A DNA stretch of 64,000 nt from Haloarcula rubra. GTDB lineage: Archaea; Halobacteriota; Halobacteria; Halobacteriales; Haloarculaceae. The DNA is taken from positions 310,001 through 374,000 of the forward strand of contig NZ_RKLR01000002.1 of NCBI RefSeq assembly GCF_019599465.1. Reading direction: 5' to 3'. How positions within the stretch are numbered: the first letter of the stretch is position 1; every line of letters starts with the position of its first letter. This document shows positions 33,113-60,312 of the stretch, piece after piece. The notes under the pieces are model-generated. The model was not told the origin of the DNA. It did not search any database and saw only the letters and a program-made list of their open reading frames with translations. The position numbers and the translations under genes were made by a program.

Positions 33113-33441
33113 TTCGAGAGTAATCTTGGTGGAGATTCGCCGCGTGCGACTGATAAACCTACTGTTTGCGGGTCGTGGGCGGTGGGGCGGTCCGGTTTCT
33201 CGTCCTCCGGATTCTCCGCGGACGCCCCCGCTGTCCGGGCGTCACTGGCCGCTGAGGGCGGCGACGGGTCTGGCGGGGGCCTCGCCACGGCCTGCGAGGG
33301 CGCCCGTACGCGCCGATGTGGTCCCGGCCGACGCCCAGCGACCGCGTGGGTCGCTGGCACGACCGGCGCGAAAAGCATGAGGTCGCTTACAGGAACTCGT
33401 TTCTGCGAACTCTTTTGTCCGAGTGGTCAGACGTCTCACAC
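33113..33441. other. 329-base divergent intergenic region with one stem-loop
   Basis: Between aIF2 gamma and the ArsR-like gene. The left end holds the aIF2 gamma promoter (TTTATCAG on the minus strand near 33152-33160). CCAGCGACC (33335-33343), GCGTG and GGTCGCTGG (33349-33357) form a perfect nine-pair stem-loop, about 85 bases before the ArsR-like start. The middle is GC-rich with open frames that look like chance; I see no gene or RNA. Confidence 0.5.
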
Positions 33442-34326
33442 ATGGCTCGCGCAGACGACAGACCGGGCGACGAGGGCGACGTCGACCCGGCGACGGCGTT
33501 CGGCGTCGTCGCCAGCGAGACGCGCCTCGACATCCTCGAAGCCCTGTGGCGGGCGGACGCGACGCCCGTGGCGTTCTCGACGCTGTTCGACGCGGTGTCG
33601 CTGACCGACAGCGGCCAGTTCAATTACCACCTCCAGCAACTCACCGGCCAGTTCGTCGCCGACGTCGAGGGCGGCTACCGCCTCCGACACGCCGGCGCGC
33701 AGGTCATCCGCGCGCTCCGCGCCGGCACGTTCACTCACCGGCCCGACGTCGACCCGTTCGCCGTCGACGGGGCCTGCACTCGCTGTGGCGGGTCGCTACT
33801 GGCCCGTTACGCGGACGAGCAGTTCGCCATCGACTGCGCCGACTGCGGGAAGGCCCACGGCGAGTACCCGTTCCCGCCGGGTGGACTGGTTGACCGGAGC
33901 GAGGCCGAAATCGCCACGGCGTTCGCCGAACGGGTACGCCACCTCCACTGTCTGGCCGCCGACGGGGTGTGTTCCGAGTGTGCCGGTCGGGTTCGGACGG
34001 TCATCTCACGGGACGGCGACTGCTGTCTCGACGTCTCGGTGCGGGCGGAGTTCGTCTGTGAGCGGTGTCGCCACGAACTGTGTTCGCCGGTCGGTCTCTC
34101 CCTGCTGGACGACTCGACGGTCGCGGCGTTCTACGCGGACCACGGCGTCGACCTCGCGGCCCGCCCGTACTGGACGCTCCCGTGGTGCGTCGACGACGAG
34201 TACACCACCGTCGAGTCGACCGACCCGTGGCGGGTCCGGGTCCGCATCCCTGTCGCGGACGAGGCGCTGCACGTCACGCTCGACGGCGACCTGCAGGTCG
34301 TCGAGACGGCCCGCCGGCAGTGCTAA
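33442..34326 (+). CDS. ArsR-like winged-helix protein with zinc ribbons
   Basis: A 294-residue putative transcriptional regulator. Residues 15-80 (FGVVASETRLDILEALWRAD, then FNYHLQQLTGQFV) form an ArsR-type winged helix. The rest carries three cysteine clusters: CTRCGG with CADCGK, CSECAG and CERCRHELC, suggesting two or more zinc ribbons, and a C-terminal beta-rich segment (WRVRVRIPVADEALHVTLDG). The cysteines could sense metal or redox state or be structural. Its stop overlaps the end of the convergent TrkA-type gene by four bases. The ATG at 33442 directly precedes the winged helix. Confidence 0.82.
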   Translation: MARADDRPGDEGDVDPATAFGVVASETRLDILEALWRADATPVAFSTLFDAVSLTDSGQFNYHLQQLTGQFVADVEGGYRLRHAGAQVIRALRAGTFTHRPDVDPFAVDGACTRCGGSLLARYADEQFAIDCADCGKAHGEYPFPPGGLVDRSEAEIATAFAERVRHLHCLAADGVCSECAGRVRTVISRDGDCCLDVSVRAEFVCERCRHELCSPVGLSLLDDSTVAAFYADHGVDLAARPYWTLPWCVDDEYTTVESTDPWRVRVRIPVADEALHVTLDGDLQVVETARRQC

Positions 34327-36503: not shown

Positions 36504-37454
36504 GTGCGGGAGTTCGGCTTCGAACTGGCGCTGTGTGCGGCCCTCGAACGCGAGGGCCACCTCGTGAGCCGCCAGCTCGGCGGCCACGTCCACGGCCGCC
36601 GCGTCCTCGACACCGTCGTCGTCCACCCGACCGAGGCCGTCGCCGACCGAGCGGCCATCACGCCCGATCGCATCCCGACGGCGGCCATCGAGTCAGACGT
36701 CGGGCCGGGCCGGGCCCGCTACTGGAAGGACGCCTTCGACTGTCACCCCGACCACGCCGAGCGAGCGACCGAACTGGCCGTCGAACGGGGCTTCTTCGAG
36801 CGCGAGCGACGCGGCGGGCGAACCTACGTCCGCCAGACCGCCCGCTACCCCGACTGGGTCGCGGGCATCACTGCCATCGAGAACAAACCGGACCTCGACC
36901 GGCCGGGCGACCTCCACGCGCAGTTACGTACCGACGTCTCGCTGGCGCTGGTCGACCGGGTGGTGTTGGCGACCGCCGACTACGTGACGCGGGCCCACCT
37001 CAACCGCATCCCCGCGGAGGTCGGCGTCTGGCGGTTCGACCCCGAGAGCGGCGACCGCGAGGTCGTCCGCGAGGCGACCGACCTGCCCACCGACGGGGGC
37101 GGCGTCGAACTGCTGGAACAGTCGCCCGCGCGAACGGACGTGCGGGTGGTGACGGCCGCCGAGAAGGCCCGCGCCCGGACCCGTCTGGCCGAACGGGCCT
37201 ACGCGAAGGGGTGGCGGAGCTTCGAGTACCCGGCGTGTGCGCGCTGTTCGCCCGACGACGACGGCCTCCCCCACTGTGCGTGGAAGGGTCGGCCGGTCCG
37301 GGCGACCGAGGAGTGCGGGGCCGACTGCGACGGGTACGAGGACGCGACCCCGCCCACCGTCGACGGCGAGGCCCGTCGCGCCGAGCGCACGCCGTGGGAC
37401 CCCGACCCCGACGGCCGTCGCCGGCGGCAGTCCGGCCTCGACCGGTTCCTCTGA
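36504..37454 (+). CDS. DUF5787 protein, likely PD-(D/E)XK nuclease with a C-terminal Cys cluster
   Basis: A 316-residue haloarchaeal DUF5787 protein from a GTG start. The order of motifs suggests a PD-(D/E)XK nuclease fold: a Glu-containing first helix (REFGFELALCAALE), Asp36 in GRRVLDTVVVH, Glu126 and Lys128 in GITAIENKP, and Gln140 in the next helix (LHAQLRTDVSLALV). A helical insertion occupies 70-115. Residues 245-275 hold five Cys (CARC, HC, ECGADC), placed like the iron-sulfur cysteines of Cas4 or AddB nucleases. These assignments are inference from motif order; the family has no established function known to me. It is divergent from the APC gene. Confidence 0.75.
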   Translation: MREFGFELALCAALEREGHLVSRQLGGHVHGRRVLDTVVVHPTEAVADRAAITPDRIPTAAIESDVGPGRARYWKDAFDCHPDHAERATELAVERGFFERERRGGRTYVRQTARYPDWVAGITAIENKPDLDRPGDLHAQLRTDVSLALVDRVVLATADYVTRAHLNRIPAEVGVWRFDPESGDREVVREATDLPTDGGGVELLEQSPARTDVRVVTAAEKARARTRLAERAYAKGWRSFEYPACARCSPDDDGLPHCAWKGRPVRATEECGADCDGYEDATPPTVDGEARRAERTPWDPDPDGRRRRQSGLDRFL

Positions 37455-59724: not shown

Positions 59725-60312
59725 ATGGAGCAGATGGACGGGCTGGACGTGGTCGCCTGCGAGCGCTGCGAAGAGCTCTGTGCGTCCCGGTCGCGCATCG
59801 TCAACGGCGTCGGCCCGGCCGACGCGGACCTCCTGTTCGTCGGCGAGGCGCCGGGCGCCAACGAGGACGAACGGGGCGAACCGTTCGTCGGCCGCAGCGG
59901 CGACGTGTTGGACGACGGCCTGCGCGAGGTGGGGCTGGACCGCGGCGACGTACGCATCACCAACTGCGTGCGCTGTCGCCCGCCGGAGAACCGCGACCCG
60001 AGGAAGGGAGAACTGGCGAACTGCCGCGAGTATCTGGAGACCGAAATCGACCGCGTCGACCCGGAACTCGTGATTACGCTCGGGAAAGTCCCTGCCGAGC
60101 ACCTACTGGGCCGGGACGTCGCTGTCACCGGCGAGGCCGGCGACGTGGTCGACGTGGCTATCGAGGGCCAGCCCCGGCGCGTGATGGTCTGTGTCCACCC
60201 GGCGGCGACGCTGTACGACCCGAGTCAGAAGGAGACGTTCGCGTCGACGTTAGCGAAGGCGGCCGACTTCACGGACGGCGAGAGCGGACAGCGACGGCTC
60301 GGGGACTTCTAG
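59725..60312 (+). CDS. Uracil-DNA glycosylase, family 4 (4Fe-4S)
   Basis: Removes uracil from DNA in base-excision repair. The 195-residue protein has GEAPGANEDERGEPFVGRSG (40-59), the catalytic and binding motif, and the C-terminal HPAATLYDP (158-166). Cys12, Cys15, Cys81, Cys84 and Cys100 (in ACERCEEL, NCVRC and LANC) supply the iron-sulfur ligands. This is the thermostable-type UDGa also seen in halophiles. It starts at ATG 59725 and is 44 bases after the DUF99 gene on the same strand. Confidence 0.93.
   Translation: MEQMDGLDVVACERCEELCASRSRIVNGVGPADADLLFVGEAPGANEDERGEPFVGRSGDVLDDGLREVGLDRGDVRITNCVRCRPPENRDPRKGELANCREYLETEIDRVDPELVITLGKVPAEHLLGRDVAVTGEAGDVVDVAIEGQPRRVMVCVHPAATLYDPSQKETFASTLAKAADFTDGESGQRRLGDF

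Follow-up and report, generated by a model that had tools for sequence, protein, structure and literature searches.

The window, by which we mean the whole 64,000-nucleotide stretch of Haloarcula rubra DNA that was analysed, carries on its forward strand an open reading frame (36504-37454, stop codon inside these coordinates) that starts with GTG and encodes 316 amino acids. The same start codon is found at this position in 70 of the 80 fetched relatives. The protein is assigned to the Pfam family DUF5787 (PF19100) with E 5.9e-96 over residues 20-279, the match scoring 321.8 bits against a curated cut-off of 25 and covering positions 1-277 of the 278-position profile. The designations DUF5787, PF19100, PF19110 and DUF5797 have no mention in the PMC open literature, where most subscription papers are absent. 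The features of the gene and its product are collected in Table 1.

Table 1. Features of the DUF5787 gene and of the protein it encodes, in window coordinates
Feature	Position	Strand	Basis
DUF5787 clade-B gene, 316 aa, GTG start	36504..37454	+	ORF, Pfam, alignment, start comparison
Helix alpha-1 (residues 3-16), bearing Glu15 (invariant) and Cys11 (nearly so)	36510..36551	+	Alignment and predicted model
Strand beta-2, residues 34-42, with invariant Asp36	36603..36629	+	Alignment and predicted model
Predicted winged-helix insert separating the Asp and ExK strands (approximately residues 54-112)	36663..36839	+	Model, 2mh2 matches
Strand beta-3 (119-127) and E126-N127-K128, ExK motif	36858..36887	+	Alignment and predicted model
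Helix alpha-2 (residues 137-147), bearing Gln140 and Asp144, both invariant	36912..36944	+	Alignment and predicted model
Cys cluster: Cys245, 258, 271 and 275 conserved, Cys248 not conserved	37236..37328	+	Alignment
PIP-box-like motif Q309-S-G-L312-D-R-F315-L316, C-terminal, tail pLDDT <50	37428..37451	+	Model, motif counts

The relatives considered here are the best 80 of 294 obtained in a scan with one genome per species, and all of them are haloarchaeal by record title. The genome of Haloarcula rubra itself contains a second DUF5787 copy, 38% identical to the window protein, and the family as a whole falls into two clades, A and B, about 36% identical to each other; a tree built from an identity-thinned set of 33 sequences from clade B and 21 from clade A separates them by a branch with 100/100 support, for which one old duplication is the simplest history. 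Among 294 genomes drawn across the phylum, 53 have DUF5787 matches, and 52 of these belong to the order of the window, Halobacteriales, each listing two or three matches (in two genomes, G161 and G259 in our numbering, a single gene in pieces accounts for two of three). The remaining match, from genome G227 outside Halobacteriales, is weak (E 2.9e-4), covers profile positions 206-276 and falls on the Cys pairs of an apparent methionyl-tRNA synthetase ORF; it was set aside as a chance hit. A larger draw from the order revealed the family in 383 of 392 genomes and in 343 of the 345 having at least 90% completeness and at most 5% contamination, with a single match in ten of the 383 positive genomes (counted from the table). 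The nine negative genomes (families f5, f36 and f39) are mostly small or incomplete; two that are neither, G134 (98% complete) and G389 (92%), may represent lineages from which DUF5787 is absent. Haloferax volcanii, used as a control in the genome scan, carries the family. Phage records gave no DUF5787 relative at E 1, none of nine DUF5787-like stretches in viral contigs was confirmed, and the plasmid search returned one haloarchaeal replicon.

Across the 68 clade-B loci with full flanks, the gene is accompanied by a convergent metallo-beta-lactamase (MBL) gene in 51, by aIF2-gamma in 46, PIN in 45, RpoE in 44, DUF359 in 42 and an AAA gene in 42, while the genes immediately upstream in the window recur at one locus (APC permease) or at none (TrkA); the names aIF2-gamma, RpoE and APC were read from sequences, and PIN, DUF359, MBL, AAA and TrkA come from Pfam. 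In the window all six of the recurrent neighbours lie on the strand opposite to the DUF5787 gene, which is therefore probably transcribed alone. No repair gene was found among the checked neighbours. Reasoning by operon was rejected for clade B: with neighbours mostly on the other strand, the synteny marks core chromosome and not function. Near aIF2-gamma the window also encodes a Cys-rich helix-turn-helix protein (DUF7347 plus DUF7351; 33316-34323, forward strand), which is present in 23 of the 68 clade-B loci. Upstream of the clade-A gene a NUDIX gene lies on the same strand at 16 of 20 loci, and at 17 of 20 a DUF5797 gene converges on the clade-A gene, often almost abutting it. Locus L115 (5428-7753) exemplifies the arrangement, and no function follows from these neighbours. 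In Natronorubrum bangense the clade-A-linked NUDIX gene is annotated as bis(5'-nucleosyl)-tetraphosphatase.

Conservation was counted in an alignment of 111 sequences, 81 from clade B (80 loci plus the window) and 30 from clade A, after exclusion of the record of the window itself (L081), of L082, which represents the same gene as L093, and of a 78-residue fragment in L039. A preliminary description of the window gene had read the succession of a Glu helix, Asp36, an IENK stretch with Glu126 and Lys128, and a Gln140 helix as the catalytic core of a PD-(D/E)XK nuclease, and the alignment bears this motif series out, E15, D36, E126, N127, K128 and Q140 being identical in 111 of 111 sequences of both clades; the acidic residues on which the proposal had been made to depend (E15, D36 and E126) are thereby kept throughout. 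Further invariant residues include R23, Q24, R33, R49, R110, Y115, W118, the P129-D130 of E126-N-K-P-D130, L137 and D144, and the invariant set is unchanged in 71 thinned rows. Five C-terminal Cys had likewise been put forward as possible ligands of an iron-sulfur cluster. Four of them stand, Cys245, Cys258 and Cys271 being identical in 111 of 111 sequences and Cys275 in 110, and the fifth, Cys248, drops out, occurring in 46 of 81 clade-B and in none of 30 clade-A sequences. The conserved tail Cys follow the spacing C-x12-C-x12-C-x3-C, with no conserved CX2C, and suggest a bound metal, either an iron-sulfur cluster or zinc. An additional Cys11 in the first helix is present in 104 of 111 sequences (three have Ala, one has Ser, and three rows were trimmed before that point), and the four sequences with Ala or Ser at this position still keep the four tail Cys. 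Cys11 goes beyond the earlier description, as do the predicted winged-helix insert, the PIP-box-like C-terminus, the two-paralogue pattern and the spread through the order.

Modelling with AlphaFold was reasonably confident for both proteins, giving a mean pLDDT of 86 and a pTM of 0.80 for the window protein, and 80 and 0.75 for the clade-A paralogue. The window model consists at its N-terminal side of helix 3-16, strands 20-26, 34-42 (with D36) and 119-127 (with E126), helix 137-147 and strand 152-157, which is the PD-(D/E)XK layout of an alpha-beta core whose second strand carries the Asp and whose third strand carries E/D-x-K. A Foldseek search of the PDB with this model returned no match at E 0.001 or better. 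Fold lists were obtained by realignment of the top Foldseek PDB chains, 998 of 1000 being aligned, and both are headed by 3dnx, with Z 10.5 and rmsd 4.3 over 138 aligned residues for the window model and Z 11.8 and rmsd 3.8 over 141 for the paralogue. The next chains are XisH 2inb (Z 7.9) and PaqCI (Z 7.5) for the former and PaqCI (Z 10.6) and XisH 2inb (Z 9.2) for the latter; for the window model 3dnx is the sole chain at Z of at least 8 among the matches listed, and its rmsd exceeds 4. Card1 and SfsA stand lower in the lists of both models and NucS/EndoMS in that of the window model; XisH, PaqCI, Card1, SfsA and NucS have PD-(D/E)XK cores. The PaqCI match of the paralogue model spans residues 3-184 and should fall where the endonuclease domain of PaqCI lies, which the available excerpt of PMC10201449 places N-terminal to the target recognition domain. 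The title of 3dnx says only 'protein of unknown function', and we take it as a relative of MmcB because a search with a phage MmcB recovers it at E 3.6e-7. Against viral models, the first match of the window model is an MmcB-like protein (E 1e-4), and the paralogue has none at E 0.001 or better, its best match having E 1.1e-3 and the next, at 1.2e-3, bearing an MmcB name. Sequence search of the PDB yielded apparent chance matches only (best E 0.0043, a designed protein), and so did the search with a profile, where CDGSH proteins came best at E 0.23. Both predicted models match nuclease structures, 3dnx first, and show, as a prediction, the restriction-endonuclease core on which the preliminary description had staked its proposal. 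A nuclease core in DUF5787 is likely on these models, and the nuclease reading, which draws on the invariant motifs, the fold matches of both models and a moderate profile match to MmcB, is well supported, nuclease activity itself being what we infer from them.

PaqCI and Card1 in the fold lists, together with the PADLOC model 'cll' recovered by 6 of 71 members (best E 5e-4), would agree with a nuclease engaged in defence or restriction. Such a role is most improbable for a family that has members in 343 of the 345 Halobacteriales genomes of good quality, shares six neighbour genes in 42-51 of 68 loci and has no relative found in phage records or viral contigs.

Profiles were compared by means of hhalign. 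The DUF5787 alignment (111 rows) scored 42% with a pairwise E of 2.6e-4 against 13 rows of MmcB, which is an SOS-regulated endonuclease of Caulobacter, 20% against five sce7726-like rows and 0.2% against 30 haloarchaeal Cas4, five unrelated neighbour families giving 0.1-0.7%. Either clade taken alone reached 14-15% against MmcB and 0.3-0.8% against the sce7726-like rows, and with the direction of comparison reversed MmcB reached 1-7%. In the MmcB alignment E126 and K128 come to stand opposite the E and K of the MmcB ExK, and the profile match may be taken as moderate support for kinship with MmcB, not as proof. The MmcB family PF06319 is absent from the 13 Pfam families listed for 71 DUF5787 members at E 1 and has no match at E 0.001 in the Haloarcula rubra genome or in 294 phylum genomes. 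Besides DUF5787 itself, the best Pfam result for the 71 members was E 0.0013 (DUF7140, nine members), and the best PHROGs result was E 0.005 among the matches listed (25 of 33 families).

The likeness of the Cys cluster to Cas4 and AddB, which had been part of the preliminary description, was not sustained. The iron-sulfur motif of Cas4, AddB and EXO5 combines one N-terminal Cys with a C-terminal CX2C...C triad, and DUF5787 does not display it. An exonuclease of this type, with a RecB-like core digesting DNA ends and an iron-sulfur cluster stapling the domain, would account for the succession of motifs E, D, ExK, Q, which resembles that of RecB-like nucleases, and for the coexistence of Cys11 (104 of 111) in the first helix with the C-terminal Cys. 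We regard it as quite unlikely, given that the strictly kept Cys are all C-terminal and spaced 12-12-3 without a conserved CX2C, and that Cys11 gives way to Ala or Ser in four sequences keeping the others. The hhalign value of 0.2% against Cas4 is inside the range of the unrelated controls, in a test of low sensitivity: MmcB against Cas4, both taken as one superfamily, gives only 1.2%, so that a distant link to Cas4 would be missed. The 30 Cas4 ORFs were chosen by this Cys motif and thus provide no independent check of it. Neither fold list has a Cas4, AddB or EXO5 title among the best 50 rows listed, and 4ic1_B (SSO0001), presumably a Cas4, appears in the Foldseek PDB list of the window model at just E 0.79 with a probability of 0.04.

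In the window model 76 residues separate strand 34-42, with Asp36, from strand 119-127, with the ExK motif, and they hold four short helices and a beta hairpin, the elements including helices 59-63, 74-77 and 82-94 and hairpin 98-103/106-111. The structure 2mh2 aligns with residues 59-112 of the window model (Z 6.8, rmsd 1.9, 54 aligned) and with residues 65-122 of the paralogue model (Z 8.5, rmsd 1.9, 58 aligned), Z values of this size being common for small domains. Most other rows of the clade-A fold list, among the matches listed, are winged-helix proteins on the same stretch; the clade-B list has many winged-helix rows that are loosely aligned, with rmsd 4-11 over scattered ranges. A winged helix appears to be inserted inside the predicted nuclease core between Asp36 and Glu126, the support coming mainly from secondary structure, 2mh2 and the clade-A list, and it remains a prediction because the clade-B rows align loosely and small domains often reach such Z. 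To our knowledge, a winged helix within the core would be an unusual build for the PD-(D/E)XK fold. Since winged-helix regulators make up much of the fold lists, one might consider a DNA-binding regulator or structural protein that works through its winged helix, with the nuclease core as an inactive scaffold; a dead core would hardly keep its catalytic positions identical in 111 of 111 sequences, and we find this explanation improbable.

The window protein ends with QSGLDRFL (tail peptide RRRRQSGLDRFL), which fits the consensus QxxLxxFx given for Haloferax PCNA clients in the part of PMC7776575 available. The pattern Qxx[LI]xx[FYW] occurs near the C-terminus of 81 out of 81 clade-B proteins, the third residue after Q being L in 80 and I in one and the sixth being F in 76, Y in three and W in two. 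Exactly one residue follows the motif in 63 of the 81 and 14 follow it in one protein; a stricter test allowing at most four trailing residues retains 79 of 81 clade-B and none of 30 clade-A sequences. Fen1 of the same genome (PF00867) terminates in QTGLDRWT. As a control within the window, 434 stop-to-stop ORFs of at least 80 codons were taken, most of which are not genes, and Qxx[LIM]xx[FYW] with at most four further residues ends two of them, the DUF5787 gene and a uracil-DNA glycosylase. The latter (59725-60312, forward strand; PF03167, E 3.8e-33) has the PIP-box-like C-terminus GQRRLGDF. At the genome level, a DNA pattern for QxxLDxF, which misses W, has 46 matches versus 6 for the reversed pattern. 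All 46 loci (48 occurrences, two sites lying close together) were read, and the reading frame stops eight residues from the Q in two of them, the DUF5787 gene and the translesion polymerase PolY (PF00817, E 4.5e-38), and after 14 residues in a third. The tail has pLDDT below 50 in the window model, as expected of a peptide that would fold on its partner.

The same tail could be another conserved C-terminal element, leaving the nuclease independent of PCNA. The motif is missing in 30 of 30 clade-A proteins, which are about as widely kept, and conservation of a short tail motif can have other causes. The clade-B tail has further highly conserved positions (R292, W298, P302, G304 and G311), so another role of the tail is conceivable. 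Given these other positions, the clade-B tail may do more than present a PIP box. That it is no PIP box at all is unlikely in view of Q, L/I and F/Y/W each being kept in 81 of 81 sequences within a disordered tail, of the nearly identical octapeptide closing Fen1 of the same genome, and of the two motif searches having also picked out, among others, the uracil-DNA glycosylase and PolY. Judged by its sequence, the putative clamp-binding tail is the strongest new clue on DUF5787, and we infer from it that the clade-B protein binds PCNA.

The gene, its conservation, the two-paralogue pattern and the sequence of the PIP box are established by computation, and the reading that we prefer, at a probability of about 0.68, is that of a clamp-tethered winged-helix PD-(D/E)XK nuclease acting at replication forks or repair patches. 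The clade-B gene would encode a metal-dependent DNA nuclease with a catalytic site formed by E15, D36, E126 and K128 and supported by Gln140; the inserted winged helix would grip and orient DNA for the nuclease site to cut, the four-Cys cluster would stabilise the C-terminal part, and the PIP box of the disordered tail would dock the protein on PCNA. Its place of work would be the replication fork or the repair patch, as for Fen1, NucS/EndoMS or PolY, and the clade-A paralogue, having no such tag, presumably works away from the clamp. DNA cleavage and a part in repair would both belong to this proposal. MmcB protects Caulobacter against mitomycin C and has a hypothesised role in interstrand-crosslink repair (excerpt of PMC9578287); on that analogy, crosslinks or blocked forks would be the first candidate substrates. 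A wider picture, which we put forward tentatively as somewhat short of an even bet, is that of an undescribed pair of nucleases shared by haloarchaea as part of their core gene set, with a winged helix inside the catalytic core. One of the two would be placed on PCNA and act on a lesion or branched intermediate handled elsewhere by MmcB, NucS or MutS/MutL-type systems, and would thus be a haloarchaeal enzyme of replication-coupled repair that annotation has missed. If the preferred reading is true, a family of unknown function that almost all genomes of the order carry would turn into a defined and testable part of archaeal replication and repair. A knockout, an active-site mutant and a PIP mutant are feasible in Haloferax volcanii, which is a DUF5787 carrier.

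Among known systems, MmcB (PF06319), for which a PD-(D/E)XK core is described (excerpt of PMC9578287), shows the closest set of likenesses: its relative 3dnx/SPO1766 is the best PDB match of both models, an MmcB-like protein is the top viral match of the window model, its profile is the best among those compared, and, as in DUF5787, its E/D-x-K strand leads on to a helix, a strand and then a G-V/I strand. The phage MmcB proteins differ in being 147-184 residues long, without the inserted winged helix, the Cys tail or the PIP box. Three large phages (L176, L181 and L182) have a thymidylate (dTMP) kinase gene next to the MmcB-like one, which in phage PaBG also neighbours a SprT/Spartan-like gene. 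The sce7726 family (NF033832) is weakly matched by 21 of 71 DUF5787 members, with a best E of 0.0027 and all matches below the curated cut-off. Distant ORFs from archaea of the same phylum (L137, L138, L140 and L141; about 285-295 residues, weakly sce7726-like, L138 having no Pfam family above cut-off) resemble DUF5787 in a long, Cys-bearing insert before an EFK motif, but the insert of the sce7726-like ORFs (L136-L138, L140 and L141) differs from that of DUF5787, and their ends RQSTLKF, RQKTFDD, RQKTLF and KQSRLF resemble QxxLxxF but do not fit it. The archaeal nuclease NucS/EndoMS (2vld and 5gke) is found in the window-model fold list at Z 6.7 and 6.6, in the range of chance matches, and we know of no winged helix or Cys cluster in it. 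In Pyrococcus it is described as a PCNA partner (excerpt of PMC3820547). Cas4, AddB and EXO5, finally, may belong with DUF5787 to one nuclease superfamily and likewise carry Cys at the C-terminal end; DUF5787 departs from them in Cys spacing and, for Cas4, also in profile score.
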